Made by a program: the position numbers and the translations under genes. A stretch of DNA of 64,000 bases. It comes from Archivesica marissinica (lineage: Eukaryota > Mollusca > Bivalvia > Venerida > Vesicomyidae). The notes under the pieces were generated by a model, which searched no databases, was not told the DNA's origin, and worked only from the letters and a program-made list of their open reading frames with translations. Within the stretch, counting starts at the first letter, position 1, and the number at the start of each line of letters is the position of its first letter. Below are positions 1,485-56,639 of this stretch, one piece after another. The stretch covers positions 13,375,311 to 13,439,310 of the forward strand of contig CM026398.1 in NCBI GenBank assembly GCA_014843695.1. The letters run 5' to 3'.

Positions 1485-1693
1485 TCAATCAAACCGACTT
1501 CTGGATGAACCGGCGTTCATTCTGGACATTATGAATGGTGTTGTGGCCAGCGCTAGTATCGATAGTCCAAGGAGCGGTCGGTAGAATATCCAAGCGATTG
1601 CTATGATCGTCAACGATAGACTGATTGATAAACTCATGTTCATCAGGAACACTCCCATGGCAACTATGTCTCGTACAATAGGTAGCCAATCAA
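1485..1693 (-). CDS. TMEM43: TMEM43 exon 11 (last, with stop)
   Basis: 209 nt, 68 codons plus TGA. It begins VDWLPIVRDIV, nearly identical to the family signature, then has two membrane segments and WIFYRPLLG. It ends with a short basic, Ser-rich tail instead of the human KK tail. The acceptor ACTTGCAG|TTGATTGG is the last of about 18 tandem copies. Confidence 0.95.
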
Positions 1694-4600
1694 CTGCAAG
1701 TAAATCAATCATACAATAGGTAACCAATCAATTGCAAGGAAATCATACAATAGGTAACCAATCAACTGCAAGTAAATCATACAATAGGTAGTCAATTAAC
1801 TGCAAGTAAATCATACAATAGGTAACCAATCAACTGCAAGTAAATCATACAATATTTAACCAATCAACTGCAAGTAAATCATACAATAGGTAACCAATCA
1901 ACTGCAAGGAAATCATACAATAGGTAACCAATCAACTGCAAGGAAATCATACAATAGGTAACCAATCAACTGCAAGTAAATCATACAATAGGTAGCCAAT
2001 CAACTGCAAGTAAATCATACAATAGGTAACCAATCAACTGCAAGTAAATCATACAATAGGTAACCAACCAACTGCAAGTAAATCATACAATAGGTAACCA
2101 ATCAACTGCAAGTAAATCATACAATAGGTAACCAATCAACTGCAAGTAAATCATACAATAGGTAACCAATAAACTGCAAGTAAATCATACAATAGGTAAC
2201 CAATCAACTGACAGTAAATCATACAATAGGTAACCAATCAACTGCAAGTAAATCATACAATAGGTAACCAATCAACTGACAGTAAATCATACATGTCACA
2301 GGGTGACAAGTGACCACTCCATATTGAGCATCACTGCGCTAATCAGCCCAAGGATTAATTAGTGAAGTTAGACAGTGGCCATAGCAGATCTTGGAACATT
2401 TGATTGAACAATGCAACTGCAATTACTCCAGCTGTCCGACTAGCGCAGTGGTTAGCGCGCTCGCTTCTCACCAATGCAACCTGGGTTCGATCCTTGGATC
2501 AGTAAGTATGTGAGATGGTACGGTGGTCGCCAGATCGGACAGGTGGGTTTTCTCTGGGTACTCCGGTTTCCTCCCACACGAATGACACACATATATATCC
2601 GCGCCAACGAGAGTGATTAATATAAGTTGATAGAACTTGCTTCGCAATCGTTGTAAAGTAAATACAGTTTAAACTTTTTTAATTACTCCAGCATTACTGA
2701 GATGATCAGAGTGGTTATGTAACTTGTACAAGACATAATGCTATTTGAAGAATATTGGATATTAACTTTATTCAAGTGGGAGAGAGGGCATCATCAAAAT
2801 TAAAAGATTTTAACAATCCAAGGGTCATAACTCTGTTGTTACTTAGACAATCCAAGGCTTATAACTCTGTTGTTACTTAGACATTCCAAGAGTCATAACT
2901 CTGTTGTTACTTAGACAATTATTGCGACAAAAATTGGACAGTAATTACTGCAGCAGACTTGAACCCATCCCTAAACAACTGACCCTAACAACCCCATAGC
3001 ATGCAACCCCTAAACAACCAACGCTAACAAGCCCTAAACATCTGACCTTATCAACCCCTAAACAACCGACCCTAACAACCCATAAACAACCGACCCTAAC
3101 AACCCATAAACAACCGACCCTAACAATCCCTAAACAACCAACACTAACAACCCCTAAACAACAACCCATAAACAACCGACCCTTAACAACCGCTAAACAA
3201 CCGACCCCAACAACCCGTAAACAACCGACCCTAACAATGCCTAAACAACCGACCCTAACAACCCCTAAACAACCCGTAAACAACCGACCCTAACAATCCG
3301 TAAACAACCGACCCTAACAACCCATAAACAACCAGACCCTTAACAACCGCTAAACAACCGACCCCAACAACCCGTAAACAACCGACCCTAACAACCCATA
3401 AACAACCGACCCTAACAACCCATAAACAACCGACCCTAACAACACCTAAACAACCGACCCTAACAACCCATAAACAACCGACCCTAATAACCCGTAAACA
3501 ACCGACTCTAACAACACCTAAACAACCGACCCTAACAACCCCTAAACAATCGACCCTAACATCCCGTAAACAACCGACCCTAACAACCCCTAAACAACCG
3601 ACCCTAACAATCCCTAAACAACCGACCCTAACAACCCCTAAACAACCGACCCTAACAACCCCTAAACAACCGACCCTAACAACATGTACCTAATGTAGTG
3701 ACTATACTGGTGAGGCACGAGAATCCGATAAACATGAGAAGCCATCCTCCAAACCTGACTGCCCACGTGATCACCGAGTTCTGCATCTTCTCCTTGCCAA
3801 ATATCTCCTGTAAATAACAAATTGATGCATGAATATAACTTGAAATACACCAGCAGGCTGTTCTACTAATGCATTGATTAGTACACTCGCTTCTCACCAA
3901 TGCAACCCGGGTTCGATCCTTTGAACTGGGAAGTACTGTATGTGAGATGATGTGGTGGTTGCCAGATCGAACCAGTGGGTTTTCTCCGGGTACTCCCACC
4001 CGAATGACCACATATATACATGTATATACATCATATATATATGTCATCCGCGACAACGAGAGTGATTAATAAATATTGGATCTTACATTCGTGGTGATTT
4101 CATACAATATTTTATGAAGACGAGCTTCATAAAATATGGTATGAAATCATCACGAGTGTAAGTAGATATACCTGAGCTGCCACTGTAGTGGTTATATAAA
4201 TATACCAGAGCTGCCACTGTACTGTGGTTATATAAATATACCTGAGCTGCCACTGTACTGTGGTTATATAAATATACTGGAGCTGCCACTGTACTGTGGT
4301 TATATAAATATACTGGAGCTGCCACTGTACTGTGGTTATATAAATATACTGGAGCTGCCACTGTACTGTGGTTATATAAATATACTGGAGCTGCCACTGT
4401 ACTGTGGCTATATAAATATACTGGAGCTGCCACTGTACTGTGGTTATATAAATATACTGGAGCTGCCACTGTACTGTGGTTATATAAATATACTGGAGCT
4501 GCCACTGTAGTGGTTATATAAATATACCAGAGCTGCCACTGTAGTGGTTATATAAATATACCAGAGCTGCCACTGTAGTGGTTATATAAATATACCAGAG

Positions 4601-7600
4601 CTGCCACTGTACTGTGGTTATATAAATATACCAGAGCTGCCACTGTAGTGGTTATATAAATATACCAGAGCTGCCACTGTAGTGGTTATATAAATATACC
4701 AGAGCTGCCACTGTACTGTGGTTATATAAATATACCAGAGCTGCCACTGTAGTGGTTATATAAATATACCAGAGCTGCCACTGTAGTGGTTATATAAATA
4801 TACCAGAGCTGCCACTGTACTGTGGTTATATAAATATACCAGAGCTGCCACTGTACTGTGGTTATATAAATATACCAGAGCTGCCACTGTACTGTGGTTA
4901 TATAAATATACCAGAGCTGCCACTGTACTGTGGTTATATAAATATACCAGAGCTGCCACTGTACTGTGGTTATATAAATATACTGGAGCTGCCACTGTAC
5001 TGTGGTTATATAAATATACTGGAGCTGCCATTGTACTGTGGTTATATAAATATACCAGAGCTGCCACTGTAGAGGTTATATAAATATACTGGAGCTGCCA
5101 TTGTACTGTGGTTATATAAATATACTGGAGCTGCCACTGTAGTGGTTATATAAATATACCAGAGCTGCCACTGTAGTGGTTATATAAATATACCAGAGCT
5201 GCCACTGTAGTGGTTATATAAATATACTGGAGCTGCCACTGTACTGTGGTTATATAAATATACCAGAGCTGCCACTGTAGTGGTTATATAAATATACTGG
5301 AGCTGCCACTGTACTGTGGTTATATAAATATACCAGAGCTGCCACTGTACTGTGGTTATATAAATATACTGGAGCTGCCACTGTACTGTGGTTATATAAA
5401 TATACTGGAGCTGCCACTGTAGTGGTTATATAAATATACCAGAGCTGCCACTGTAGTGTGGTTATATAAATATACTGGAGCTGCCACTGTACTGTGGTTA
5501 TATAAATATACCAGAGCTGCCACTGTAGTGGTTATATAAATATACTGGAGCTGCCACTGTACTGTGGTTATATAAATATACTGGAGCTGCCACTGTACTG
5601 TGGTTATATAAATATACTGGAGCTGCCACTGTACTGTGGTTATATAAATATACTGGAGCTGCCACTGTACTGTGGTTATATAAATATACTGGAGCTGCCA
5701 CTGTACTGTGGTTATATAAATATACTGGAGCTGCCACTGTACTGTGGTTATATAAATATACTGGAGCTGCCACTGTACTGTGGTTATATAAATATACTGG
5801 AGCTGCCACTGTAGTGTGGTTATATAAATATACTGGAGCTGCCACTGTACTGTGGTTATATAAATATACCTGAGCTGCCACTGTACTGTGGTTATATAAA
5901 TATACCAGAGCTGCCACTGTAGTGGTTATATAAATATACTGGAGCAGCCACTGTACTGTGGTTATATAAATATACCAGAGCTGCCACTGTACTGTGGTTA
6001 TATAAATATACTGGAGCTGCCACTGTACTGTGGTTATATAAATATACTGGAGCTGCCACTGTACTGTGGTTATATAAATATACTGGAGCTGCCACTGTAC
6101 TGTGGTTATATAAATATACTGGAGCTGCCACTGTACTGTGGTTATATAAATATACTGGAGCTGCCACTGTACTGTGGTTATATAATATACCAATATACTG
6201 GAGCTGCCACTGTACTGTGGTTATATAAATATACCAGAGCTGCCACTGTACTGTGGTTATATAAATATACCAGAGCTGCCACTGTACTGTGGTTATATAA
6301 ATATACTGACGAGCTGCCACTGTACTGTGGTTATATAAATATACTGGAGCTGCCACTGTACTGTGGTTATATAAATATACTGAGCTGCCACTGTACTGTG
6401 GTTATATAAATATACCAGAGCTGCCACTGTACTGTGGTTATATAAATATACTGGAGCTGCCATTGTACTGTGGTTATATAAATATACTGGAGCTGCCACT
6501 GTACTGTGGTTATATAAATATACCAGAGCTGCCACTGTACTGTGGTTATATAAATATACCAGAGCTGCCACTGTACTGTGGCTATATAAATATACTGGAG
6601 CTGCCACTGTACTGTGGTTATATAAATATACCAGAGCTGCCACTGTACTGTGGTTATATAAATATACTGGAGCTGCCATTGTACTGTGGTTATATAAATA
6701 TACTGGAGCTGCCACTGTACTGTGGTTATATAAATATACCAGAGCTGCCACTGTACTGTGGTTATATAAATATACTGGAGCTGCCACTGTACTGTGGTTA
6801 TATAAATATACTGGAGCTGCCACTGTACTGTGGTTATATAAATATACTGGAGCTGCCACTGTACTGTGGTTATATAAATATACTGGAGCTGCCACTGTAC
6901 TGTGGTTATATAAATATACTGGAGCTGCCACTGTACTGTGGTTATATAAATATACTGGAGCTGCCATTGTACTGTGGTTATATAAATATACCAGAGCTGC
7001 CACTGTACTGTGGTTATATAAATATACCAGAGCTGCCACTGTACTGTGGTTATATAAATATACTGGAGCTGCCACTGTACTGTGGTTATATAAATATACT
7101 GGAGCTGCCACTGTACTGTGGTTATATAAATATACAGGAGCTGCCACTGTACTGTGGTTATATAAATATACCAGAGCTGCCACTGTACTGTGGTTATATA
7201 AATATACTGGAGCTGCCATTGTACTGTGGTTATATAAATATACTGGAGCTGCCACTGTACTGTGGTTATATAAATATACCAGAGCTGCCACTGTACTGTG
7301 GTTATATAAATATACCAGAGCTGCCACTGTACTGTGGCTATATAAATATACTGGAGCTGCCACTGTACTGTGGTTATATAAATATACCAGAGCTGCCACT
7401 GTACTGTGGTTATATAAATATACTGGAGCTGCCATTGTACTGTGGTTATATAAATATACTGGAGCTGCCACTGTACTGTGGTTATATAAATATACCAGAG
7501 CTGCCACTGTACTGTGGTTATATAAATATACCAGAGCTGCCACTGTACTGTGGCTATATAAATATACTGGAGCTGCCACTGTACTGTGGTTATATAAATA

Positions 7601-10600
7601 TACCAGAGCTGCCACTGTACTGTGGTTATATAAATATACTGGAGCTGCCATTGTACTGTGGTTATATAAATATACTGGAGCTGCCACTGTACTGTGGTTA
7701 TATAAATATACCTGAGCTGCCACTGTACTGTGGTTATATAAATATACCTGAGCTGCCACTGTACTGTGGTTATATAAATATACCTGAGCTGCCACTGTAC
7801 TGTGGTTATATAAATATACCTGAGCTGCCACTGTACTGTGGTTATATAAATATACCTGAGCTGCCACTGTACTGTGGTTATATAAATATACCTGAGCTGC
7901 CACTGTACTGTGGTTATATAAATATACCTGAGCTGCCACTGTACTGTGGTTATATAAATATACCTGAGCTGCCACTGTACTGTGGTTATATAAATATACC
8001 TGAGCTGCCACTGTACTGTGGTTATATAAATATACCTGAGCTGCCACTGTACTGTGGTTATATAAATATACCTGAGCTGCCACTGTACTGTGGTTATATA
8101 AATATACCTGAGCTGCCACTGTACTGTGGTTATATAAATATACCTGAGCTGCCACTGTACTGTGGTTATATAAATATACCAGAGCTGCCACTGTAGTGGT
8201 TATATAAATATACCAGAGCTGCCATTGTACTGTGGTTATATAAATATACTGGAGCTGCTACTGTACTGTGGTTATATAAATATACCAGAGCTGCCACTGT
8301 ACTGTGGTTATATAAATATACCAGAGCTGCCACTGTACTGTGGCTATATAAATATACTGGAGCTGCCACTGTACTGTGGTTATATAAATATACCAGAGCT
8401 GCCACTGTACTGTGGTTATATAAATATACTGGAGCTGCCATTGTACTGTGGTTATATAAATATACTGGAGCTGCCACTGTACTGTGGTTATATAAATATA
8501 CCTGAGCTGCCACTGTACTGTGGTTATATAAATATACTGGAGCTGCCACTGTACTGTGGTTATATAAATATACCTGAGCTGCCACTGTACTGTGGTTATA
8601 TAAATATACTGGAGCTGCCACTGTACTGTGGTTATATAAATATACTGGAGCTGCCACTGTACTGTGGTTATATAAATATACCAGAGCTGCCACTGTACTG
8701 TGGTTATATAAATATACCAGAGCTGCCACTGTACTGTGGTTATATAAATATACTGGAGCTGCCACTGTACTGTGGTTATATAAATATACTGGAGCTGCCA
8801 CTGTACTGTGGCTATATAAATATACCAGAGCTGCCACTGTACTGTGGTTATATAAATATACCAGAGCTGCCACTGTACTGTGGTTATATAAATATACTGG
8901 AGCTGCCACTGTACTGTGGTTATATAAATATACTGGAGCTGCCACTGTACTGTGGTTATATAAATATACCTGAGCTGCCACTGTACTGTGGTTATATAAA
9001 TATACCAGAGCTGCCACTGTACTGTGGTTATATAAATATACTGGAGCTGCCACTGTACTGTGGTTATATAAATATACCAGAGCTGCCACTGTAGTGTGGT
9101 TATATAAATATACTGGAGCTGCCACTGTACTGTGGTTATATAAATATACCAGAGCTGCCACTGTACTGTGGTTATATAAATATACTGGAGCTGCCACTGT
9201 ACTGTGGTTATATAAATATACTGGAGCTGCCACTGTACTGTGGTTATATAAATATACCAGAGCTGCCACTGTACTGTGGTTATATAAATATACTGGAGCT
9301 GCCACTGTACTGTGGTTATATAAATATACCTGAGCTGCCACTGTACTGTGATTATATAAATATACCAGAGCTGCCACTGTACTGTGGTTATATAAATATA
9401 CTGGAGCTGCCACTGTACTGTGGTTATATAAATATACCAGAGCTGCCACTGTACTGTGGTTATATAAATATACTGGAGCTGCCACTGTACTGTGGTTATA
9501 TAAATATACTGGAGCTGCCACTGTACTGTGGTTATATAAATATACCTGAGCTGCCACTGTAGTGTGGTTATATAAATATACCAGAGCTGCCACTGAGTAA
9601 CTCGGGTGAGATAACCTACTATTTGATGACTTTGTACATTTTTGGGCTGTAATGTCACTGAGATTCCCTGCATGTACGAATGGATAACATTTCGGAAGCT
9701 CACTGCCAGTAATTGATTGAGTTGGTTCGCACCAACTCTACTTTGTTCGATGCTAAATAACATAAATATGCTGAACATAAAGATAGATGTTCAGAAGTTG
9801 GTAAGGTTGTTCGCTCAAAAATCATCATTAATATAGACTAGTGAAAATGTATAGGTATTAACCCTTTCAACACCACAGACCTCTAAATAGGCGTACAAAA
9901 AGTGTAGATCCAGATGAGCCGGCTCGTGATGAGCCGTCTCATCAGGATCTGCACTTTTTGCCAGTAATATTACAATTTTTAAACAATAATTTACCCATTT
10001 TGATAAATGAACTGATCCAAATGTAATTTTCTTATTAATTTAATTGGTCTAAAAATGTCATGGACCAGTCTATGGCAGTTACTTGGTGTTGAATGGGTTA
10101 AAGGAAACAAACAAATCACATACCATGAATGCATTCGCACAGCGCTTGTACCTGCATATGGAATCTTAGCTTTACATCTTATGGGGCCTCTCCAACTATT
10201 GGTGGAGGAAGACTCTGGGTGCCCATCCGAGCAGTATTTCAGGCATGGAAGGTCATCCGGGTAGATCCAGCAACCTTCCACAAGCCAGCTGGATGACTTC
10301 CTCACATGAAAAAATTTGACACTCCCAATGGGATTCGAACCTGCCAAAGTGATTTGAAATCGACGACAATAAGCACTCGGCCACGTTTTGTTCATACGTA
10401 ATACTCTGTATAGAATTCAGTAAATGGAACTTTGGATTACTGTCTAACCTGAATTAGATAATGACTAAGTCCAATGAAAAAGCCACATTTCTCGCTTCTA
10501 AATCGTATAGACGAGACCTACTTATGTACGTTGTCTAAGTCTGGTAGATCAACTCATTGGCCCGTCTTAACGATATATACATCTCGCTTCGCTCCGTGTA

Positions 10601-13600
10601 TATTTCGCTAAGACGGGCCAATTCGTGATCTATCCGATACACACATGACATTATGATGGAAAATATTCGAAACAGTTTACCTGTGCTGATAAACTACCCT
10701 CATACAATAGTTCCAGGACGTCGCCAGCTAGGGTCTGGTAAGGCAACAACTTTGATCCCAGTTGCCTGGCTACAATGCTCACCTAAACGGATAAAAGTGT
10801 ATTTATAGTAACACAGACCTTGCAGATGGATCTGTAGTCCAGTGGTAACACGCTGGACTGGTAATCCAAGGATCGCAGGTTCGATCCCCGTCTGACCCTA
10901 ATAAAATTCAGTTGGAACTGTAAGCCGAGGTCTTGTGTCGGTGCTTCACACTGTGCACGTAAAAGAACCAGAGGAGATTCTGGAATGGGTCTCTGTCTGT
11001 ATCATTGCACTATCCTCCAAAATGACTGATCTCTTCAGGAGGCGTCGCTCATATGGACAACCAGTAGCGACGATAAATAAACGTAAAAACACACTCCAGC
11101 ATCACAGTATGTTGAAAACTGTAGTAGTCTGAGATTTGAAAAATGCAATGGGCTGATTGGCCGTAGCCTTTCGAACCACGTTGTAAGCAACTTACCGGAT
11201 GCCAGACATGAAAGCAAAGCGTTGAACCCTGTTTCTCTTACATTACCTGCTTTAGTTAATTGTAACAATGCAGGGTACCAGTCTACAGAATGACATACAC
11301 AATATATCATTACAGAATTACAAGCAACCACACTATTCCTGACTTATAGTACAATGACATATAGTACAATGACATATAATACAATGACATATAGCACAAT
11401 GCCATATAATACAATGACATATAGTACAATGACATATAATACAATGACATATAGCACAATGACATATAGCACAATGACATATAATACAATGACATATAAT
11501 ACAATGACATATAGCACAATGCCATATAATACAATGACATATAGCACAATGCCATATAATACAATGACATATAGTACAATGACATATAATACAATGACAT
11601 ATAGTACAATGACATATAATACAATGACATATAGCACAATGCCATATAATACAATGACATATAGTACAATGACATATAATACAATGACATATAGTACAAT
11701 GACATATAATACAATGACATATAGTACAATGACATATAATACAATGACATATAGCACAATGCCATATAATACAATGACATATAGTACAATGACATATAGT
11801 ACAATGACATATAATACAATGACATATAGTACAATGACATATAGTACAATGACATATAATACAATGACATATAATACAATGACATATAGCACAATGCCAT
11901 ATAATACAATGACATATAGTACAATGACATATAATACAATGACATATAGCACAATGCCATATAATACAATGCCATATAATACAATGACATATAATACAAT
12001 GCCATATAATACAATGACATATAATACAATGACATATAATACAATGACATATAATACATATAATACAATGACATATAATACAATGACATAATACATATAA
12101 TGCAATGACATATAGTACAATGACATATAATACAATGACATATAATACAATGACATATAGTACAATGACATATAATACAATGACATATAATACAATGACA
12201 TATAGCACAATGACATATAGTACAATGACATATAGTACAATGACATATAATACAATGACATATAATACAATGACATATAATACAATGACATATAGTACAA
12301 TGACATATAATACAATGACATATAGTACAATGACATATAATACAATGCCATATAGCACAATGCCATATAATACAATGACATATAATACAATGACATATAA
12401 TACATATAATGCAATGACATATAATACATGTATATAATGCAATGACATATAGTACAATGACATATAGTACAATGACATATAGTACAATGACATATAATAC
12501 AATGACATATAATACAATGACATATAGTACAATGACATATAGTACAATGACATATAATACAATGCCATATAATACAATGCCATATAATACAATGACATAT
12601 AATACAATGACATATAATACAATGACATATAATACAATGACATATAATACATATAATGCAATGACATATAGTACAATGACATATAATACAATTGACATAT
12701 AATACAATGCCATATAGCACAATTGACATATAATACAATGACATATAGTACAATGACATATAATACAATGACATATAGCACAATTGACATATAATACAAT
12801 TGACATATAGTACAATGACATATAGTACAATGACATATAATACAATGACATATAGTACAATGACATATAGTACAATGACATATAATACAATGACATATAG
12901 TACAATGACATATAATACAATGCCATATAATACAATGACATATAGTACAATGACATATAATACAATGACATATAGTACAATGACATATAATACAATGACA
13001 TATAGTACAATGACATATAATACAATGACATATAGTACAATGACATATAATACAATGACATATAATACAATGACATATAATACAATGACATATAATACAA
13101 TGACATATAGTACATATAATACATATAATACAATGACATATAATACAATGACATATAATACAATGACATATAATACAATGACATATAGTACAATGACATA
13201 TAATACAATGACATATAGTACATATAATACATATAGTACAATGACATATAATACAATGCCATATAATACAATGACATATAATACAATGACATATAATACA
13301 ATGCCATATAGTACAATGACATATAATACAATGACATATAATACAATGACATATAGTACAATGACATATAATACAATGACATATAATACAATGACATATA
13401 GTACAATGACATATAATACAATGACATATAGTACAATGACATATAATACAATGACATATAATACAATGACATATAATACAATGACATATAATACAATATA
13501 CAATGACATATAGTACAATGACATATAATACAATGACATATAATACATATATACAATGACATATAATACAATGACATATAATACATATAATACAATGACA

Positions 13601-16600
13601 TATAGTACAATGACATATAGTACAATGACATATAATACAATGACATATAGTACAATGACATATAGTACAATGACATATAATACAATGACATATAGTACAA
13701 TGACATATAATACAATGACATATAATACAATGACATATAATACAATGACATATAATACAATGACATATAGTACAATGACATATAGTACAATGACATATAA
13801 TACAATGACATATAATACAATGACATATAATACAATGACATATAATACAATGACATATAGTACAATGACATATAATACAATGACATATAATACAATGACA
13901 TATAATACAATGACATATAGTACAATGACATATAGTACAATGACATATAATACAATGACATATAATACATATAATACATATAATACAATGACATATAGTA
14001 CAATGACATATAGTACAATGACATATAATACAATGACATATAATACAATGACATATAGTACAATGACATATAATACAATGACATATAATACAATGACATA
14101 TAGTACAATGACATATAATACAATGACATATAATACAATGACATATAGTACAATGACATATAATACAATGACATATAGTACAATGACATATAATACAATG
14201 ACATATAATACAATGACATATAATACAATGACATATAATACATATAATACAATGACATATAGTACAATGACATATAATACAATGACATATAATACATATA
14301 ATACAATGACATATAATACAATGACATATAATACAATGACATATAGTACAATGACATATAGTACAATGACATATAATACAATGACATATAATACAATGAC
14401 ATATAATACAATGACATATAGTACAATGACATATAATACAATGACATATAATACAATGACATATAATACAATGACATATAGTACAATGACATATAATACA
14501 ATGACATATAATACAATGACATATAGTACAATGACATATAATACAATGACATATAGTACAATGACATATAATACAATGACATATAATACAATGACATATA
14601 ATACAATGACATATAATACAATAATACATATAATACAATGACATATAATACAATGACATATAATACAATGACATATAGTACAATGACATATAATACAATG
14701 ACATATAATACAATGACATATAATACAATGACATATAGTACAATGACATATAGTACAATGACATATAATACAATGACATATGTACATATAATACATATAG
14801 TACAATGACATATAGTACAATGACATATATACAATGACATATAATACAATGACATATAATACAATGACATATAGTACAATGACATATAATACAATGACAT
14901 ATAATACAATGACATATAGTACAATGACATATAATACAATGAATATAATACAATGACATATAGTACAATGACATATAGTACAATGACATATAGTACAATG
15001 ACATATAATACAATGACATATAATACAATGACATATAATACAATGACATATAGTACAATGACATATAGTACAATGACATATAATACAATGACATATAGTA
15101 CAATGACATATAATACAATGACATATAATACAATGACATATAATACAATGACATATAATACAATGACATATGGTACAATGACATATAATACAATGACATA
15201 TAATACAATGACATATAATACAATGACATATAGTACAATGACATATAGTACAATGACATATGGTACATAACTGTTGATGAATGGATAAAACAACCCTAAT
15301 CTTACTATTGTTTGAGGTCCAATGTGAGACTTCCCACTGAGTCCAGAATACTCAAACCTTACTCTTACATCTCCAATCTGAAATAGACATGTTTCTCATC
15401 ATTCAGGATATAATATGTAAGCAGCCAGGCTAGCTCAGTCAGTAGAGCGTTCGTCCTGTAAGCAAAAGGTCATGGTTTCGAGCCCCAAATGGGCAGCTCA
15501 TTTTTAACCCTGTGACATCTGGTGCCGATTGGGGAGCCACAACTGAATATATTCTTCAATAACAAGTTTACCTTGTTCTATATCCCTGGAAATTCCATTA
15601 TGGTGGGGAAGTATGTCACAGTAGAGACTGTGGCTAGTCCAACAGCTCAAAATAATGTTGCTTTCAATGTTTATTTGGCGAAATATGATTTAGTTTAAAC
15701 AATATTTTATTTCAATGAATATACATAGTCTAATGATCACAATATGAAAATACATGTAGGATTGAGGAGAAAGCAACTTGCTTATATGGATACCTCTTTC
15801 CTAATATGATTTGCTCACACAAACAAATTTCCTCATTCTATTTATCATAATTTGAATGAAATTTGCATTTCAACTTCATTAAAGCGACATTACATCGGTG
15901 AAAACGCAAATGTCTGGAAAATGTTATTTCCTAATATACCATATAATTTGTTTCCAATATTTGCCTCAAAAACTGAGTATTTCAACAAATAAACAAGCGT
16001 TGTATACGCGGGTTGTTGACATAACAAAATAATTTAAATAGGGTCGACATTCATGCGTAATACAATGTGTGTATCCTGAATAACACGACTTATGGTACAG
16101 ATTTAACGCTATATCTCACATTTGTGCCTATGCATATTTACTTGTCGACTAATCTTAGCTAAATTATCTCTAAACGAAAGTATCGCGCCCGCTTAGTATT
16201 GACTCCAATGACAAACAAACGTCATTTCAGGAGAGTGGATGACCGTTATACGAAATCCTACTTTCACTTTTGAAAGTTTGTAGACCACAAAAACACTGTT
16301 TATTGAATCAATGTTAGTGTTCGAATGTATTCAGAAGAATGTGTAGTAGCAATGCATTTATACGTGAAAACATGCACTTTATTAGCTTTTTGCGATGTAA
16401 TGTCGCTTTAATATGGTCAAGTACAATAGTATAGTGGATGCATAGGGTCGATGCTATGATAAATCTGTCCATCCAGGACGTGTACATCTTCCTTACCTGT
16501 GGATGCATAGGGTCGATGCTATGATAAATCTGTCCATCCAGGACGTGTACATCTTCCTTACCTGTGGATGCATAGGGTCGATGCTATGATAAATCTGTCC

Positions 16601-19600
16601 ATCCAGGATGTGTACATATCTCTTACCTGTGGATGCATAGAGTCGATGCTATGATAAATCTGTCCATCCAGGGCGTGTACATCTACCTTACCTGTGGATG
16701 CATAGGGTCGATGCTATGATAAATCTGTCCATCCAGGACGTGTACATCTTCCTTACCTGTGGATGCATAGGGTCGATGCTATGATAAATCTGTCCATCCA
16801 GGACGTGTACATCTACCTTACCTGTGGATGCATAGGGTCGATGCTATGATAAATCTGTCCATCCAGGATGTGTACATCTCCCTTACCTGTGGATGCATAG
16901 GGTCGATGCTATGATAAATCTGTCCATCCAGGATGTGTACATCTCTCTTACCTGTGGATGCATAGGGTCGATGCTATGATAAATCTGTCCATCCAGGATG
17001 TGTACATCTCCCTTACCTGTGGATGCATAGGGTCGATGCCATGATAAATCTGTCCATCCAGGATGTGTACATCTCTCTTACCAGACACCTCATGTTTTTC
17101 AACACGTAGCTGATGGAAACTGCTGATTCTAGCCTTCAAACCTGAAATGTAAGTTTCGGCAATATTTTACACAAAGTTCACAGAACAGTTACATGCCATT
17201 TCTTAACCCTTTCCTTCATAAAGATTTAGGTTAATATACTATTATATCTCCATACAAAACGACAGCCATTTAGCTATCATGTAGTGGATAAGTAGTCGCC
17301 ATATCTATCCCACCTCCATAGATATTACTGGGACTACATAGAGATTTAGGTTAATACACTATTATATCTCCATACAAACGACAGCCATTTAGCTATCATG
17401 CAGTGGGTAAGTAGTGGCCATATCTATCCCACTTTCATAGATATTACTGGGACTACATGAGATTCTGGCCTTTATTATGAACATTGGTTTGGCTACTACA
17501 TTGTCAATGTATGCCATATTGGTAATGGCGTCAAGAGGTCCTTCTACAAGGGAGAGGGTTAAATGCAGACAAATTGTACCTAACAAACAAATTTTGCTAT
17601 CAAATATCTTATGTTTATAGGGCATAAGTCAGCTCCAAGACGTACACCCCTAGGCGTCCGTGGTCCAGTGGTAGAGCATCGGATTTGGAATCGAACGGTC
17701 CCGGGTTTGATACTCGGTCAGGCCACGTATGTAGTGTCATTGAGCAAAACTAAGCCTGCCCAGGAAAACATGTTTAAGTCCCCGCGAGGGGTTTGACATT
17801 AAAGGAACATACATACATAGAACTAGAACCTAGTCTGTCCAGTTAGCATCTATATGGTTAGAACACTTGCATCTCACCAATGTAAACTGGTTCCATGCTC
17901 ACTAAGCTGAAATCCAGGATACCTAAGTGTATGAATGAATGAATGGTGTTTTACGGCGCATCAACATCTAAGGTCATGTAGCGCGCATTAAAGTTATGTT
18001 TATTGTCGAGTGTATGAAATAAAATTCTATATAAGTATATGCATTACGTAAAAATTAATACTAAGAAGCTATAAAGACGTAAGATTAATTACAGGTAATA
18101 TATGAATGAATGATTACTACAAAGGCATGATTAACAATTGATATCACAGCTTATTATAAATTCCTATTGCCTTGATAAATGATATGATGGACTCTACTCC
18201 CTAAGTGTATACACATTTATTATAGCTCGATTGCGAAACAGGTTCTTACAACTTATATTAATCACTCTCGAGACCTCATTCCTGATGGAATCCATCGCCA
18301 CGAGGGAGAGAGAAGAGGCAATGTGGAATTTAAATGCCTTGCCTAAGGGCACAATCGTAACGGCTCCAGCGGGGCTCGAACTCGGGGCCTTTCGCACCTG
18401 AAGCGAACACGCATCCACTGCGCTATCAGGACTTCCACCTAAGTAATGTAAGTTATTTAAATATATGCATCAAGGGAGCGACAGAATAATTTTAAACTAC
18501 AACTATTATTATATAATGGACTGGTTACCGGCAGTACACATCCAGATTTACTCTATGCACAGTGTAACATTATACAAATATTTCATTGCCATTCGGGGTA
18601 CCGTCTTGCCACAAGATGCTGTGGACCTCCCGATAAACCATTGTCCGAGGCCCGTCCGCATTCCATGTAACAGAAATGACATGCGTTTTCATTGGCTCAA
18701 TTTATAGTGTGACTTGATCCGAGGCAAAGCAAGTCAAATGACTGGCTGTCCAATTAGCGTAATGGTTAGCGCGCTCGCTTCTCACCAATTCAACCCGGGT
18801 TCGATCCTCGGACCGGGAAGTATGTGAGATGGTACGGTGGTCGCCAGATCGGACAGGTGGGTTTTCTCCGGGTACTCCGGTTTCCTCCCACACGTATGAC
18901 CACATTAACGCTTTCATCGGCGCCAACGAGAGTGATTAATATAAGTTGTTAGAACTTGCTTCGCAATCGTTGTAAAATAAGTAAAGTTTAAACATTAAAG
19001 TCAAATGACCAGTCAATAGTAGGGTGAAAAAATTAAAGTACTATTTCCTGCGAATGAAACTGTTTGATAGTCAAGCGACCGAATGTAAAACAATGGGGAA
19101 CACTGAAAACTGACAAATTACAATTTATAAAGGAGGTTGGGTAAAAAATATGTTAATGGCAAAGCAGCTTGATCAAGTGGGGGGGGGGGGGGTGGAATCA
19201 AATCATGTCCACTGTTATGGCCCCATAATAAAAAACATGCCATCATAGTTTTCGTATTTTTCATGACAACATATCAGTATTACCTTCTGACAGAATGAAC
19301 TCTCCAACATTTACAGTGGGTGCGACATATGACTTGCCTTCAACAGCCATTGATCTGTAACATACGAATAAATGCTGCTGGTTAATATGAACATATCTGT
19401 AAAGTATTGCTTTTTTAAAATACTTTTTACGGTCTATGGAAAATTAAAAAATTGAAATTGATCTACCGGAATTATTAATCGGAGAGTTTTACTCATGGAA
19501 CCAGACAAAGCTGCAATGTTATTGGGATTAAGAGTGATGATGATGATGATTGAGCTTATTTACCCTCGCCTCTGGCGAACCATGTGGGCGAGCGAGGGAT

Positions 19601-22600
19601 TAAGTGTGGAGTCATGGTACCCAGGTTTTCCTCCTTTCACACTGCCCCGGGTTGTACAAGACTAAATGCCATGACATCATTTGCAAACAAATTCGAAAAC
19701 AGGTGGCATACTAAAACAGGGCAAGTATTTCTGTGGTGAAATGAGTCTAAACTAAACTTACTTGGCATTTCTGTGTTTAATTTCATCCCAAACTTACTTG
19801 GGATTTCTGTGTTTAATTTCATATCAAACTTACTCAGGATTAATCTGTGTTTAATTTCATCCCAAACTTACTTGGGATTTCTGTGTTTAATTTCATACCA
19901 AACTTACTCAGGATTTCTGTGTTTAATTTCATCCCAAACGTACTCGGGATTTCTGTGTTTAATTTCATCCCAAACTTACTCGGGATTTCTGTGCTTAATT
20001 TCATCCCAAACTTACTCAGGATTTCTGTGGTTAAACGAGTCATCAAAACCATTACTTCTGATAACGTGCGACGACCAGGTCATAGCTGAAATACACAAAA
20101 CGTAACACATTATACATTTCAAATTGTATCACCTGGGTGACCGAATGAACACATTGTATACAAGGCTAATAAGTATATTCATTGCAACTCATTCGTTTAT
20201 CATCATTAAAATATTGTTCGAGATTCATAATTTACATCATAATCATGGTTATGTTATATGCTTAAGCTTGCATTCTACCCATTATCTGATAATATTATAA
20301 TATATTTATAACTTGTAAATTTGTCGACATAAAGAGTTTGGTTTTCCAAAGCTGAATGTCTTTCGAAAACACACTTTACAAAGAGCATGTACAAACTTCA
20401 CGTTTACTGCATCGCTTACTACATCACCTATCAGTGACTACATTACACATTTGGGAAAATAATTTCCATCGAATCTGTTCCATAAACAAAGAAAAGTATA
20501 CGTATTGGTATTGTATTTTGAAATGCACTTGAGAAAATAAAAGATTTTTTTATTTCATACTGTCATGAAGTACAGGTTGTTTTATAATGTACATATTTAC
20601 TAATATTTATTGTCTATGCTACATGTTGTCTACCAGTTAAAGTCATTCTATTTGTACATTTAAAATATCATAGACAAGTTGTAAAATTGCTCTGTATCAT
20701 AGACTAGGTGTACAATTGCTCAGTATCATAGACAAGTTGTAAAATTGCTCGGTATCATAGACAAGTTGTAAAATTGCTCTTTTATCATAGACTAGGTGTA
20801 AAATTACTCAGTATCATAGACAAGTTGTAGAATTGCTCAGTATCATAGACAAGTTGTAAAATTGCTCGGTATCATAGACAAGTTGTAAATTTGCTGATGG
20901 ATGAAGTTGATTTATTGAAATTAATGATGGATGGATGAACATTGAATTCATAAACCCGTTAATATTTTTCAGCGGAATTCTACTGGATAGATGGAAACAA
21001 TATATTAGCGGGAAATATCGGTACTAATTAAGTTGTGGAATGTTTGTGCTTACAAGGAAGTACCATAATACAGTCAAACCTGTGTTAAGCAGCCAACCAA
21101 GGGAATCACAGAAAGTGGCTGCTTAGCACATGTGGCTGCTCAATACAGGTTAAATGCATAACAAAGTAACATATTGGGAATCTGAAAACTGACTGCTAAT
21201 GCAGGTTGGCTGCTTAATAGAGGTGACCACAAACACAGGTTTGACTGTATTACAATTGTCAAAGTAAGATACTAACTGTATGAATATTCTTTCTCCACCC
21301 TTGTTTCTCCATTGCCCTCGTCATACTTCCTGCAATAGCCAAGCATAGACAAACAATTATTCAACTGTCAACATACTTCAAACTGAGAAGACACTCATAT
21401 ATTTACCTTAAGCACCAGAATAATAAGCACTGGTATGTATAATCAAGTATGTATAATCAAGTATGTATAATCAAGGACGTATACTCAGTACGTATAATCA
21501 AGGATGTATAATCAAGTATGTATAATCAAGGACGTATAATCAAGTACGTATAATCAAGGACGTATAATCAAGGACGTATAATCAAGGACGTATAATCAAG
21601 TATGTATAATCAAGGATGTATAATCAAGGACGTATAATCAAGGACGTATAATCAAGGATGTATAATCAAGGACGTATAATCAAGGATGTATAATCAAGGA
21701 CGTATAATCAAGGACGTATAATCAAGGACGTATAATCAAGGATGTATAATCAAGTACGTATAATCAAGGATGTATAATCAAGGACGTATACTCAGTACGT
21801 ATAATCAAGGACGTATAATCAAGTATGTATAATCAAGTATGTATAATCAAGGACGTATAATCAAGGATGTATAATCAAGGATGTATAATCAAGTATGTAT
21901 AATCAAGGACGTATAATCAAGGACGTATAATCAAGGACGTATAATCAAGGACGTATAATCAAGGACGTATACTCAGTACGTATAATCAAGTATGTATAAT
22001 CAAGGACGTATACTCAGTACGTATAATCAAGTATGTATAATCAAGGACGTATAATCAAGTACGTATAATCAAGTACGTATAATCAAGGACGTATAATCAA
22101 GGACGTATAATCAAGTACGTATAATCAAGTACGTATAATCAAGGACGTATAATCAAGGACGTATAATCAAGGATGTATAATCAAGGATGTATAATCAAGT
22201 ATGTATAATCAAGTATGTATAATCAAGTACGTATAATCAAGTACGTATAATCAAGGACGTATAATCAAGGACGTATAATCAAGGACGTATAATCAAGTAC
22301 GTATAATCAAGGACGTATAATCAAGGACGTATAATCAAGGACGTATAATCAAGGACGTATAATCAAGGACGTATAATCAAGGACGTATAATCAAGTACGT
22401 ATAATCAAGGACGTATAATCAAGGACGTATAATCAAGGACGTATAATCAAGGACGTATAATCAAGGACGTATAATCAAGGACGTATAATCAAGGACGTAT
22501 AATCAAGGACGTATAATCAAGGACGTATAATCAAGGACGTATAATCAAGGACGTATAATCAAGGACGTATAATCAAGGACGTATAATCAAGGACGTATAA

Positions 22601-25600
22601 TCAAGGACGTATAATCAAGTACGTATAATCAAGTACGTATAATCAAGGATGTATAATCAAGGATGTATAATCAAGGATGTATAATCAAGGACGTATAATC
22701 AAGGACGTATAATCAAGTACGTATAATCAAGTACGTATAATCAAGGATGTATAATCAAGGATGTATAATCAAGGAAGGACGTATAATCAAGGATGTATAA
22801 TCAAGGACGTATAATCAAGGACGTATAATCAAGGACGTATAATCAAGGACGTATAATCAAGGACGTATAATCAAGTACGTATAATCAAGTACGTATAATC
22901 AAGGATGTATAATCAAGGATGTATAATCAAGGATGTATAATCAAGGATGTATAATCAAGGATGTATAATCAAGGACGTATAATCAAGGACGTATAATCAA
23001 GTACGTATAATCAAGTACGTATAATCAAGGATGTATAATCAAGGATGTATAATCAAGGATGTATAATCAAGGACGTATAATCAAGTACGTATAATCAAGG
23101 ATGTATAATCAAGGATGTATAATCAAGGATGTATACTCAGTACGTATAATCAAGGACGTATAATCAAGGACGTATAATCAAGGATGTATAATCAAGGATG
23201 TATAATCAAGTACGTATAATCAAGTACGTATAATCAAGGATGTATAATCAAGGATGTATAATCAAGGATGTATAATCAAGGACGTATAATCAAGTACGTA
23301 TAATCAAGGATGTATAATCAAGGATGTATAATCAAGGATGTATACTCAGTACGTATAATCAAGGACGTATAATCAAGGACGTATAATCAAGGATGTATAA
23401 TCAAGTACGTATAATCAAGTACGTATAATCAAGGACGTATAATCAAGTACGTATAATCAAGGACGTATAATCAAGGACGTATAATCAAGTATGTATAATC
23501 AAGGATGATTGAAATTTCATCAATTTTATTTCATTCATCAATTTTATTAATAAAGAGGCATTAAATGGTGCACACCTTTTCCTGACCCCGTGCAAGCCGG
23601 GAATATAGCGTACACAGTGCGTTACTGCTAACAAGTCAATGCACTATAAAACCTTAAAATGTACATTATAAAATGACCTTTCTGTTTCATGTTCCTTCCA
23701 CTGGTACATTTCCACAACGCGGTTAAGTTTGACAGCATGTACTGCAATGTTGTACTCTGGATCAATCAGCGCCTAAACACAAGAACAGTCAGACATACAT
23801 AACTATATATACATACACACCAATTACACATACATACATACATACATGTATATACATACACACCAAATACACATACATACATACATGTATATACATACAC
23901 ACCAAATACACATACATACATACATACATACATACATACATACATGTATATACATACACACCAAATACACATACATACATACATGTATATACATACACAC
24001 CAAATACACATACATGTACACACACAATATATATGTATATACATACCAGGGCTCATTGTAGGTCATAAATATTGGTAGAAGTGAGACAGTGACCGATTAC
24101 ACCCGTAAATTGTGTTATTTAATAACTTTGAACATAATAGGGTTAAAAGTCACAATTTGACAATTTTTAATAGGAGTGTGTTATAATGGGCCAGTGTATC
24201 TTACTGGACAATATTTTGCATGAAAATTAAAAAAAAAAATTATTTAGGGAGAAGTGGGGTTCCAGGGAGCGAAGTCAGGGTCACTATGGCGACTATTTCA
24301 CCCTCTAGAACAATCCATGACCTGCACACCATCGTCTTGTACCAGATTAATATTATTATTATACCTTATCAGTTTGAAGGTCGCCAATCAGTTGTACTAG
24401 TTTTCCATTGTTCTCCATGGACACCACTCGTGTACTTGGTAACTTGACCACCATGTCTAACCCCTCATCTAGAGATTTTGCAGTCTGTACTGCCCTTCCC
24501 TAAAATATGTACATGTACATACAAGAACAATATTTCCAGTGGAATTATTATGAATGCTTGCATGGCACAAACCATTCCTGGAGCGTTTGCCCCGAGATAT
24601 TAAAAGTTTTCATACGATTTATTAACAGTAATTTTCATTTTCAGCCAATTTCTGAAAATCATTTGGAATGGATTGTGGAAGTCTTGATAGTGCAGTGGTA
24701 GCGCATTCGCTTGAGGTACGAAAGGCCCAGAGTTTGAGCCCCGATGGAGCCGTTACGACTGTGCCCTTAGGCAAGGCATTTAAATTCCACATGCTTCTTC
24801 TCTCTCCCTCATTGAGATGGATTCCATCAGGAATGAGGTCTAGAGAGTGATTAATATAAGTTGTAACAACTATTTTCGCAATCGAGCTAAAATAAATTTG
24901 TATAAACAATAAACTAATTACAAAATAAGTAGGACCCCTGTTTTCAGGCTAATGTGCTTCTCTATTGCTCTTCTGAGATTCTCATGGGATTTGACATGTT
25001 CGATATGCAGTCAAACCTGTCTTAACCAGCCATCCAAGGGAGTCAGAGAAAGTGACTGCTTAGCACAGGTTGCTGCTTAATAAAGGTAAAATATATAATA
25101 AAACAACCGATTGAGAATCTGGAAACTGGCTGCTTAATACAGGTTGGCTACTTAATGGAGGTAACCACTAACACAGATTTGACTGTAGACCATAGAAAAA
25201 TTGATTTTTCTCTGCCGTTGATAACCAGATTTCTGGTATACCGGTAGGTAAATTATCGGCTTTTATCCATCCTTTGGTATAGATAAGCACATTGTCTTTC
25301 AATAAAAACATAACAGTCAATGTTTTGAATTTGCATAAAAGCATGTTGTATTTAAAGGAATGATATTACTTTTAGCATTCCAAAAATATACCTTTTAGCA
25401 AGTTGTAAAATAAAACCACTGTAACTACATGTAGCATAAATGGGAGGCAACAACTGAGATTTTGGTGAAGAAAAAGGAGGTTTCCGCCTAAAATGCCATT
25501 TTCTGTGAGCTAATAGATGCCAAACTCTATATCATTGTGAAATTATAAAACCTCAGCCACCTGGATGTACCTTACCTGTGCGTAACTAAACATAGGACAG

Positions 25601-37809: not shown

Positions 37810-40800
37810 TTACAGCATGTTTGCTATGGTACGCCTCTTTTCTTCCCCAAGTAGATTGACGCATTCAGTGTTAGCATCTTGATCAACTGCTACCTCTGTT
37901 TCATTCATCACTAGGTCACTTTCTTCATCTACTTCACTGCCCAGTATGAAGTTGTGCAACACACAACATGCTGTGATAACTTCTGGAATTTTGTCTTTCA
38001 AAATCATATCAAGTGACTTCATACGTCTAAATTTACATTTTAATAGTCCAATGGCCCTCTCCACATCAACTCTTGTCGAAGATTGTACCTTGTTAAATTT
38101 CTTTTGTATCCTGTCCAAGTGGCCATTATCTCTGTATGGCACAAGCATCTTGGGAGACAGAGGATATGCTGAATCCCCAAGAACATGGAAGTCACCAGGT
38201 AGATTCTCTATATAATCCTTTACAGGACTGTTCCTATAAACTCTGGCATCATGAACTGATCCTGGCCATCCAGTGTATGTGTCCAGGAACATTAGTTTGC
38301 TGTCGCACACTACCTGGAGCTGTATGCTGCCAAAACCCTTCCTGTTAATATAAGAAGCCCTGTGTTCAGAGAGTGGTGCAGGTACAGGAATGTGCGTTCC
38401 ATCTATTGCTCCTACAACCCCTGGAAATCCAGTTTTCTCACAAAACCCCTCGGCAACTAGCTCCAACTCGTTCCGTGTCTCTGGAAGCTTAATGTAGTTG
38501 CCTTTCAGTGTTGACAGAGCTTTACTGGTCTGTAGGACAGTTAGGTGGAGAGTTCCTGAAAGAGAATGTTTAGAATTATAAAAGTAAAACTAGTGTGTGT
38601 ATAACCATGAATCTGTAAGTTTTTTACCAGCATGTGGGCAATTCAGTAGGCTGTCCGGTAAGCTCAGTCGGTTAACACGGTGAGCTGTCACCAATGCGGC
38701 ACAAAATTGATTGATACCAGATCGGACAGGGGTTTTCTCCGGGTACTCCAGCTTACTCGCACATAAAGAATCATACACTTTCGATAAAATAGTCAACAGC
38801 CTTGATGAATACAAGTTACATAACTTATTTCAAAATTATATTATACGTTTAAACACTTGGAATAAACTAGAGATTGTTTCTGAAAAAACAAACTTGGATC
38901 TCCAGATACACGGTCGCATGCTCTACTGACTGAGCTAAGATGTACTGCAGTCGTGACACACGGCGCATGCTCTACTGACTGAGCTAACACGTACTGCAGT
39001 CGTGACACACGGTCGCATGCTCTACTGACTGAGCTAACATGTACTGCAGTCGTGACACACAGTCGCATGCTCTACTGACTGAGCTAACATGTACTGCAGT
39101 CGTGACACATGGTCGCATGCTCTACTGACTGAGCTAACATGTACTGCAGTCGTGACACACAGTCACATGCTCTACTGACTGAGCTAACATGTACTGCAGT
39201 CGTGACACACGGTCGCATGCTCTACTGACTGAGCTAACATGTACTGCAGTCGTGACACACGGTCGCATGCTCTACTGACTGAGCTATCAAGGACAGCAGT
39301 CGTGACACATGGTCGCATGCTCTACTGACTGAGCTAACATGTACTGCAGTCGTGACACACGGTCGCATGCTCTACTGACTGAGCTATCAAGGACAGCAGT
39401 CGTGACACATGGTCGCATGCTCTACTGACTGAGCTAACATGTACTGCAGTCGTGACACACGGTCGCATGCTCTACTGACTGAGCTAACATGTACTGCAGT
39501 CGTGACACACGGTCGCATGCTCTACTGACTGAGCTATCAAGGACAGCAGTCGTGACACATGGTCGCATGCTCTACTGACTGAGCTAACAAGTACAGCAGT
39601 CGTGACACACGGTCGCATGCTCTACTGACTGAGCTATCAAGGACAGCAGTCGTGACACATGGTCGCATGCTCTACTGACTGAGCTATCAAGGACAGCAGT
39701 CGTGACACACGGTCGCATGCTCTACTGACTGAGCTATCAAGGACAGCAGTCGTGACACACGGTCGCATGCTCTACTGACTGAGCTATCAAGGACAGCAGT
39801 CGTGACACACGGTCGCATGCTCTACTGACTGAGCTATCAAGGACAGCAGTCGTGACACACGGTCGCATGCTCTACTGACTGAGCTAACACGTACTGCAGT
39901 CGTGACACGGTCGCATGCTCTACTAACTGAGCTAACACGTACTACAGTCGTGACAGATGATTGACTAACAGAAAATTGTCACGTCACATCTAGGGTTTCT
40001 TTCCGGGATTCCCGGCAATTTATTTTTCTCATTTCCCAGGATAAAAGTTATCGGGATCCCGGGAAATGATAGTTTTAGGAAATTGAATCTGAAAGTAGGC
40101 TTAATACCAAGAATCAGTGTTAAATCTTGGAATTAAATCTGAAAGTACAATTATAACCAAGAATCAGTGCTAATTCTTGGAAATTGAAGCTGAATGTACA
40201 ACAGTTACCAGGACATTTCTCACTTTTCCTGGAATTTGTTGAACCTGCAGATCCAGATTAACCATTCATTGGCATTCAAGTGGGTGGACTTGCTGTTTCA
40301 TGTCACACATTAGTACTTTAGTAGTGTTTAATAATGTCTCGTTCGACTGCATGGAATCATTTCGAAAGGAAATCTGTTGACTTGGCTGAGTGCAGTTTAT
40401 GTAAGAATGTGATAAAAACTAAAAGTGGATCGACAAGCGGACTGATAAGACACTTGAGGGAGAAGCATGGCATCAAAGCTGTTTCATCCAGCCAGTCTAC
40501 GTCTACTGGTGCAACTGCAAGTACCAGTGCCTGTGCATCGTCAAGCAAAAGGCCTGTATGCCATTCTGCTTCTAGTGCGCCATTGGGGTTGTCCGATCCA
40601 AAGCAGAGAACTCTGAACTTTGTTGTTAAGAGCAAAAACTCACTAGAAGAAACTGTCGCCCGATTGGCAGCACAAGATGGGTTCTCTATCAATGGGATCA
40701 CTAACAGTGTCTTCATTCGACGTGCATTCGCAAAAGAAGGTCATAAATTGCCAATAAATAACACAATCGTGATGAGTTTGGTGAAGACATTCTACGATGA

Positions 40801-54823: not shown

Positions 54824-55381
54824 ATGAGACCGTGTATCGGACTATATTCATAGCAAAACGGGAGAGGAGACGTGGGAGGCTGGCATCGGACGGGCACACA
54901 CAGGACATGGACAGGAGCAAACTACTAACAAACAACATCTCCTTAACAAGAGACGAATGAAAAAAGTACTTTCAGCTAATGAATAAAAAGCGTTTCCTGG
55001 TAAAAGATATACATATATTGAGTATAATATTATATAGTTATTCTGGCAGAAACAACATTTACAGATTACAGATGAAATGCGAACCTATTGTGTAAATTCG
55101 AATTACTAAACAGTATTGATACAAAACGACAGAAAGGTTTGGACGTTATAAACAAATAAGAAAAATAAAAAGTCTTTATAACAATGGGAGGCAAATAACG
55201 AGAGTGCTATAAGCAGGTGGGTTTTAACAAAATTGGTACGTGTGAAGGGGTTGTTTTAACAATACCCGAAACCATTACGAAGAACTTCGAGACAAAAGCA
55301 GTAAGCAATGTATGACAGCATAGAGGAAGCTGGGAATATAAACATGTATGTACACGCCTGAAGGTTCTTCCGAGTTGTGGA

Positions 55382-55660: not shown

Positions 55661-55945
55661 TTGATTTCGGACTATTCCTCGTGCATATAAGTGATTATAA
55701 TCACTAGTAGATCTACATACATTTAAATCAAGAAATAAGATAACATACTGTAACTTTAGCCAAGTTAGGTACTGACGTCTGTTGGACGGTAAGCATAATC
55801 TAGCATGTTTTGTGCAGAGCATTATACAGTCAGTAAATCTAACTTCCAAGTTGCGTCAAACAGGTCAATTATCAATAGTATTTCACTCGGATCAATAAAA
55901 CTGCCAAGTGTTAAAAATTTATTTGTACGGAGACGCGTCAGTTGT

Positions 55946-56473
55946 TAATTTTGAGTACAGAAATAATGGATTACTCCTATTGTATGGACTATATAGATAC
56001 ATGTGTAAACATCATTACCGTGTACGCATGAACATCTGCAAACAAAATACATAACGGTATAATGCAATCAGTAAGTTTGAGGTTAAACGGTATTTGTAGC
56101 ACATAACAATTATATATTATATATATCTATAAATGTACATTGCAGCTCAGTATCTGTCACGTGTTGTAATAATTTACTGTGAATAAGAAACGTCTATATA
56201 GTGATTATTGTTAATTTTGAGTACAGAAATAATGGATTACTCCTATTGTATGGACTATATAGATACATGTGTAAACATCATTACCGTGTACGCATGAACA
56301 TCTGCAAACAAAATACATAACGGTATAATGCAATCAGTAAGTTTGAGGTTAAACGGTATTTGTAGCACATAACAATTATATATTATATATATCTATAAAT
56401 GTACATTGCAGCTCAGTATCTGTCACGTGTTGTAATAATTTACTGTGAATAAGAAACGTCTATATAGTGATTA
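55946..56473. repeat. Two-copy direct repeat of about 262 bp in LINE 5' region
   Basis: TTGTTAATTTTGAGTACAGA to GAAACGTCTATATAGTGATT, two essentially identical copies. The position at the 5' end of the 2A-LINE resembles promoter monomers of some LINEs. Confidence 0.9.
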
Positions 56474-56639
56474 TAAGGTATATATTCTTTATTTATCCTC
56501 CAGTATTGAAGAGCATACAATTCACATATTACAAGAACAATTACAACAGTGAAATATATTACAATGTTATAAGGAAATTAAGTAACAGAAATAAACGCTT
56601 ATATACATATTCTATATATAATCGCAACAGGCGATGTGT

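Follow-up and report, generated by a model that had tools for sequence, protein, structure and literature searches.

Three tandem arrays in the TMEM43 gene of the clam Archivesica marissinica each repeat one of the gene's own splice sites, namely the acceptor of exon 11 and the donors of exons 5 and 7. In all three, the splice junction is within the repeat, with both intron and exon sequence included in the unit, and the authentic boundary is at the exon edge with the duplicates lying in the intron. The copy that preserves the protein is always the exon-proximal one, which is the first site for the donors and the last for the acceptor. Together the arrays place 31 decoys with an intact GT or AG (16 acceptor, 7 and 8 donor) in the TMEM43 introns. 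The reading preferred here, at a probability of about 0.68, is that these are splice-site 'mirages' as known from lancelets, in which a boundary-crossing tandem duplication has grown as a minisatellite and survives since splicing selects the copy adjoining the exon. The window analysed is a stretch of 64,000 nucleotides (GenBank CM026398.1, positions 13,375,311 to 13,439,310); all positions given below are those of the window.

The TMEM43 gene

1485..26207, minus strand: TMEM43 gene, 11 coding exons, 394 aa (GT/AG exon assembly, Pfam, homologue identity)
20016..20085, minus strand: coding exon 5, donor TGA|GTAAGT after 20016 (exon assembly)
17017..17141, minus strand: coding exon 7, donor CAG|GTAAGG after 17017 (exon assembly)
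1485..1693, minus strand: coding exon 11, real acceptor AG just before 1693 (exon assembly)

The exons assemble from 26207 to 1485 with GT/AG at all internal junctions and without an early stop. The assembled protein matches the Pfam family TMEM43 (PF07787, E 1.5e-83). A search for relatives found 2416 within the 8000 candidates scored; among the best 120 of these 2416, which were the matches listed, the closest is TMEM43 of Mercenaria mercenaria (83% identity) and most of the next-closest named relatives are bivalves. A human TMEM43 sequence served as the tblastn query and located nine of the 11 exons, exons 5 and 6 weakly (E 0.20 and 0.04). Exons 7 and 4 were added outside tblastn, exon 7 by eye. 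The original prediction had numbered the exon at the array 11, as does the assembled gene model.

The introns are 592 to 6873 nt, and those flanking exons 5, 7, and 11 are 661-2142 nt. There is no insert at the exon joins 5/6, 7/8, and 10/11 in any of 15 aligned homologues, which were chosen out of the 120 listed of 2416, come from other species, and may be without arrays. An acceptor-like TTCAG is directly upstream of the ATG; a 5'UTR exon may therefore precede coding exon 1. Near exon 11 there is a poly(A)-like AATAAA at 1450. TMEM43 is the single complete cellular gene recognised in the window, where Pfam was applied to nine further open frames only.

An array of exon 11 acceptors

1674..2293, minus strand: Array 1, 34-bp unit with the exon 11 acceptor (gatttacttgcag|TTGATTGGTTACCTATTGTAT), 18 copies (Tandem Repeats Finder, acceptor register)
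1732..1733, minus strand: AG lost (CAA) in the copy adjoining the real acceptor (copy-by-copy comparison)

Tandem Repeats Finder reports this array at 1674-2293 with a period of 34, 18.1 copies, 94% matches, and a score of 1085. An array of 18 copies with 94% matches is beyond chance. It had been predicted at 1681-2290, and is at that place but extends slightly wider. Each unit contains gatttacttgcag or a variant of it, then the first 21 bases of exon 11, with 0-3 base differences between a copy and the majority unit. It had been proposed that the repeated site is TMEM43's own acceptor of exon 11, and the exon assembly and the copy comparison bear this out. The location given for the real exon start was also right, although its first base is 1693 rather than 1694. 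Across this junction, the assembled protein and all 15 homologues read T-[LI]-V-[DG]-W with no insert, which supports the start assigned to exon 11.

Set in register by their acceptors, the 18 copies are 34 bp apart at 16 of the 17 spacings; the one adjoining the real exon is 38 bp. The AG is intact in 17 copies. The exception is the copy directly upstream of the real acceptor, which has CAA at 1731, and a 4-bp insertion is found in the same interval, beside the real acceptor. The real exon 11 acceptor therefore lies 72 nt from the AG before it. The corresponding interval is 34 nt in all but one of the 17 other copies, the exception being the outermost, with 41 nt.

Arrays of exon 5 and exon 7 donors

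19754..20034, minus strand: Array 2, 36-bp unit with the exon 5 donor, the real donor and 7 decoys (Tandem Repeats Finder, copy comparison)
16434..17082, minus strand: Array 3, 65-bp unit, its first copy being the end of exon 7 at 17082-17017 (Tandem Repeats Finder, copy comparison)

In array 3 the exon 7 donor coincides with the first junction between units and recurs at the later ones, giving the real donor and eight downstream decoys; the last copy ends without a donor. The copies have 0-4 base differences from the majority unit. At the array edge (17082), inside exon 7, there is also a weaker donor-like CTG|GTAAGA that matches 7 of 9 consensus positions.

Donor strength was taken as the count of matches to CAG|GTAAGT. 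The real exon 5 donor has 6 of 9 and its seven decoys have 6 to 8 of 9. For exon 7, the real donor and all eight downstream decoys have 8 of 9. By consensus matches the decoys equal or beat the real donors, and donor strength was rejected as the basis of site choice. The acceptors were compared by AG, pyrimidine count, branch-point-like motifs, and AG-free distance only. TMEM43 pits its real sites against seven decoy donors at exon 5, eight at exon 7, and 16 decoy acceptors at exon 11, and is a natural test of splice-site choice.

Predicted outcome of decoy use

On paper, a shortened protein results from all 17 upstream acceptor copies, from the 7 and 8 donor decoys, and from the exonic donor-like site. 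Use of an upstream exon 11 copy ends the protein at 332 aa (16 of the 17 copies) or 327 aa (one copy). It had been expected that any earlier copy would read V-D-W-L-P-I-V and then a stop. This is exact in 13 of the 17 upstream copies, including the AG-less copy at 1731, and four deviate: those at 2173, 2071, and 1867 differ by one residue and that at 1799 reads V-N-stop. The predicted loss of the last two membrane segments is compatible with hydropathy, since windows that start at residues 335-345 and 349-358 would be lost. Translation of each copy and the exon assembly confirm that full protein comes from the exon-touching copy alone.

The stop reached through an exon 11 decoy is in the last exon, 23 nt past the last junction, in the two of 17 copies for which this was computed; for the remaining copies, the protein lengths place it at or before the same point. 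A stop in the last exon should not trigger the usual junction-dependent decay, and nonsense-mediated decay is therefore unlikely for the exon 11 decoys. Exon 5 decoys lead to a stop at 163 aa and exon 7 decoys to a stop at 250 or 253 aa, with the exonic donor-like site giving 214 aa. The intronic donor decoys of these two exons number 15, and their stops are 279 to 743 nt ahead of the last junction, so that nonsense-mediated decay would be expected.

It is possible that the arrays act as a copy-number rheostat, as the original prediction also considered, with some transcripts using decoys and array length setting the amount of full TMEM43. Exon 5 and exon 7 decoys would then feed nonsense-mediated decay and exon 11 decoys would give a shorter protein. 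GT or AG is intact in the decoys, save one of the 17 acceptor copies, every decoy shortens the protein on paper, and repeat-borne donors are usable in mRNA in human IFI6 (PMC4526556, in the text available). Against this, there is no sign of selection keeping the arrays, and many arrays in the window are away from splice sites. Decoys of exon 11 would escape junction-dependent decay, and the lancelet mirages leave splicing undisturbed by RT-PCR, as far as the available text of PMC3087553 reports. The analysis yielded no support for tuning by copy number, and this use of the arrays is considered unlikely.

Proposed choice of the exon-proximal copy

The preferred reading is that an intron-exon boundary chanced to fall within a short tandem duplication, which later expanded like any other minisatellite in an array-rich stretch of the clam genome. 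Such an array would survive because splicing still chooses the copy touching the exon, with exons presumably recognised as units (exon definition). The arrays would then be nearly neutral, tolerated rather than used. The intact and conserved protein suggests that TMEM43 is spliced regularly despite them.

The 'distal-choice rule' offered earlier for exon 11 asked the right question, but the exon 5 and exon 7 donor arrays require the wording 'exon-proximal'. Rules such as 'first transcribed' or 'closest across the intron' fail for the two kinds of array together, because the exon-proximal site is the first donor and the last acceptor. A rule of 'closest across the exon' can fit the donors and the acceptor alike. 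Exon definition is the likeliest such rule because the introns beside exons 5, 7, and 11 are at least 661 nt. It is reported to take over above intron lengths of 200-250 nt (PMC9225289), and the 661-2142 nt introns here exceed this threshold as given in the available text of that paper.

In the text available, Carranza et al. describe minigenes in which two identical strong donors competed and the flanking introns were 365 nt long; all of these used the upstream, exon-proximal donor exclusively (PMC9225289). As described there, TMEM43 exons 5 and 7 are in this same situation. Their survey of human events found the upstream donor in use in 60% of equal-strength events, which is a tendency, and before strength matching the downstream donor was used in most events; minigenes with larger exons skipped them once both donors had been weakened (PMC9225289, same portions). 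For human acceptors, the upstream site is less strongly preferred when introns are long, with no reversal stated in those portions (PMC9225289).

Exon definition is therefore well supported for the donor arrays and more weakly for the exon 11 acceptor array, because long introns only reduce the upstream preference while exon 11 needs the most downstream of its 17 AG copies. Exon 11 may be helped by the AG-dead copy, by sequence within the exon, or by pairing with the AATAAA poly(A) signal close by at 1450. The CTG|GTAAGA inside exon 7 is a further complication. A rule of the shortest exon would misfire there by giving a shorter exon than the real donor, though the consensus match of this site is lower.

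Alternatively, the real exon 11 acceptor may be marked locally. The AG-dead copy and the 4-bp insertion create the 72-nt AG-free stretch, and branch points in the last two units would serve the real AG only. In keeping with this, the AG-free distance is 72 nt at the real acceptor but 34 nt at nearly all upstream copies (16 of 17; the outermost has 41 nt), and some such help may be needed where the exon-proximity rule is weak, as it is for acceptors. However, the mark is one substitution and one insertion, each a coincidence of about 1 in 17. Array edges are also expected to diverge, as homogenisation spares them in the lancelet mirages (PMC3087553, in the text available), and the two donor arrays are left unexplained. 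As a full account, the local mark is improbable, to about the same degree as the rheostat.

A broader reading joins these elements and is less probable again, a long shot in its entirety. It takes TMEM43 as a three-site splice competition in which 31 nearly identical decoys in the introns have to be ignored, the acceptor goes beyond the proximity rule, exon 7 has a self-healing ladder, and mirages are general. The ladder refers to array 3, where the extra n x 65 nt from a decoy donor starts with GT and ends with AG in all eight cases, and every unit except the last has CACAG|GTAAG at its end. Judging from these motifs, a second (recursive) splice could excise the exon 7 extension and thereby restore the exact exon. 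Rescue by a second splice was rejected for exons 5 and 11, where the two extensions examined for each do not run from GT to AG. Were the joint reading true, such junctions would be buffered against array growth, and mirages would be general and overlooked in minisatellite-rich invertebrate genomes.

That the arrays were misplaced by assembly or TMEM43 is a pseudogene is very unlikely: long arrays are hard to assemble, and the copy number in the one haplotype examined may be wrong, but the 394-aa frame is intact, with GT/AG at all internal junctions and strong conservation, and the patchy differences between copies (0-3 in array 1, 0-4 in array 3) are unlike the stutter of one sequence.

Origin of the arrays

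The intron side of array 1 begins ...ACATGTATGATTT and its exon side continues ...ATTGTACGAGA. A duplication between the two TGTA words at exon 11 yields exactly the 34-bp unit. At exon 7, GGTAAGAGAGATG in the exon and GGTAAG at the donor are 65 bp apart, and the array 3 unit is the segment between them. The founding duplications may thus have used short microhomology, TGTA at exon 11 and GGTAAG at exon 7.

All nine non-exonic copies of array 3 have a Ser codon where exon 7 has Gly, and the homologues at this position have Ser in 12 of 15, Gly in two, and Thr in one. The Ser shared by the nine copies and 12 homologues suggests that array 3 probably came from exon 7 and preserves an older state of the exon. 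Just past array 2, the intron has a diverged 21-bp piece (19727-19747) that agrees with the tail of exon 5 at 19 of its 21 bases, a sign of an earlier, longer duplication.

Mirages in other genomes

Lancelet 'mirages' are described as tandem repeats over 5' or 3' exon boundaries; their units measure 10 to 160 bp, their copy number is unstable, and RT-PCR shows that splicing is regular (PMC3087553, PMC3902484, in the text available). The genes named there are Adh3, the globins BflGb6 and BflGb9, TnC, and PGBD5 (PMC3087553). On that description, the TMEM43 arrays belong to the same class, here in a mollusc. The phenomenon is already described in lancelets; new are the phylum, the copy number, and the presence of three arrays in one gene. 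The clam arrays have about 18, 10, and 8 copies, in comparison with 3 or 6 for lancelet BflGb6, and the available text reports PGBD5 with two repeats at splice sites. TMEM43 also adds donor and acceptor arrays together, and donor decoys that equal or exceed the real site by consensus match. Normal splicing was demonstrated by RT-PCR in the lancelets according to that text, whereas for the clam it is expected from the intact, conserved protein. The extension of mirages from lancelets to a mollusc suggests that minisatellite-rich genomes generate them repeatedly.

In human IFI6 (6-16, G1P3), a minisatellite supplies several donors (Turri 1995, as cited in PMC3618361 and PMC4526556). The accounts in these citing papers, as far as available, have two downstream repeat units serving as donors to give isoforms, whereas the clam decoys would shorten the protein. 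Donors only are involved, with no acceptor array mentioned in those accounts, whereas TMEM43 has an acceptor array too. The predicted premature stops from interior donors argue against an isoform use of the IFI6 type in clam TMEM43.

A tandem duplication over an intron-exon boundary, carrying the 3' splice site and the exon start, is reported in potato RdRp (PMC4974935). In the text available this is one extra copy that gave a new intron by RNA-seq, and no array, unlike the clam. Human segmental duplications have internal tandem repeats at exon-intron boundaries with units of about 30 bp (PMC2812944). As described in the available text, the paralogues are young, half of the repeats are coding, and the boundary repeats can form introns and so lead to mRNA changes (PMC2812944), unlike clam TMEM43, where the mRNA would be expected to be unchanged. 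No bivalve or mollusc mirage was among the matches listed from the openly licensed literature, at the level of titles and abstract openings. An abalone gene with a 27-bp minisatellite was considered as a mollusc case and rejected, its repeat being intronic, with no splice-site duplication described in the text available.

Tandem arrays across the window

Tandem arrays make up 43% of the window, 58% of the TMEM43 span, and 105 of the 1185 coding bases, counting 39 arrays, two of which overlap slightly, hand-picked from 76 Tandem Repeats Finder rows. Units range from 3 to 266 bp. Several arrays are kilobases long, among them those at 4166-9595 and 11340-15261, which are both in TMEM43 introns.

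The same 39 arrays were used in a rotation test along the gene with 21 junctions, including the putative 5'UTR acceptor. Three of the 21 are inside arrays, fewer than in the rotated sets (mean 12.3, P 0.006), as expected because of selection on exons. Four of the 21 are within 30 bp of an array edge, in comparison with a mean of 1.1 (P 0.015). These are the exon 3 acceptor, exon 5 donor, exon 10 donor, and exon 11 acceptor, and include only two of the three mirages. The case for a special attraction of arrays to splice sites is weak. The pattern could reflect survivorship, with arrays inside exons lost and those straddling a boundary spared. The array beside exon 10 was considered as a further mirage and rejected, its splice site being outside the repeat:

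3004..3683, minus strand: 24-bp array in intron 10, edge 6 bp from the exon 10 donor at 3690/3689 (Tandem Repeats Finder)

Of the nine other open frames, four had Pfam matches: three to transposon-type domains, and a fourth that fell below the curated cut-off. The transposable-element-like frames are at 37810-38589 (DDE_Tnp_4 transposase), 40325-40903 (BED zinc finger), and 52541-54841 (RVT_1). By eye, a 55-bp unit repeated 19 times with 99% matches at 42855-43899 (Tandem Repeats Finder) appears to be within a LINE-like reverse transcriptase region, the array reading like ELKSNDSIKYLGV with RT-like flanks; the flank at 42407-42796 has no Pfam match. Just downstream of the TMEM43 poly(A)-like signal, at 1184-1364, are nested inverted repeats with 29-nt and 25-nt arms that resemble a small MITE-type element.

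ARAGORN identified a tRNA-Thr at 10828-10899 (plus strand) and a tRNA-Leu at 18362-18433 (minus strand), both in TMEM43 introns; each could be a tRNA gene or an element of tRNA origin. At 38908-39955, 21 repeats of a 50-bp unit resemble the D-arm portion of a tRNA (TAGCTCAGTCAGTAGAGC, minus strand) and perhaps come from a tRNA-derived SINE; ARAGORN found no tRNA at this site. Two adjoining 266-bp copies at 55942-56474 have 100% matches, a very recent tandem duplication.
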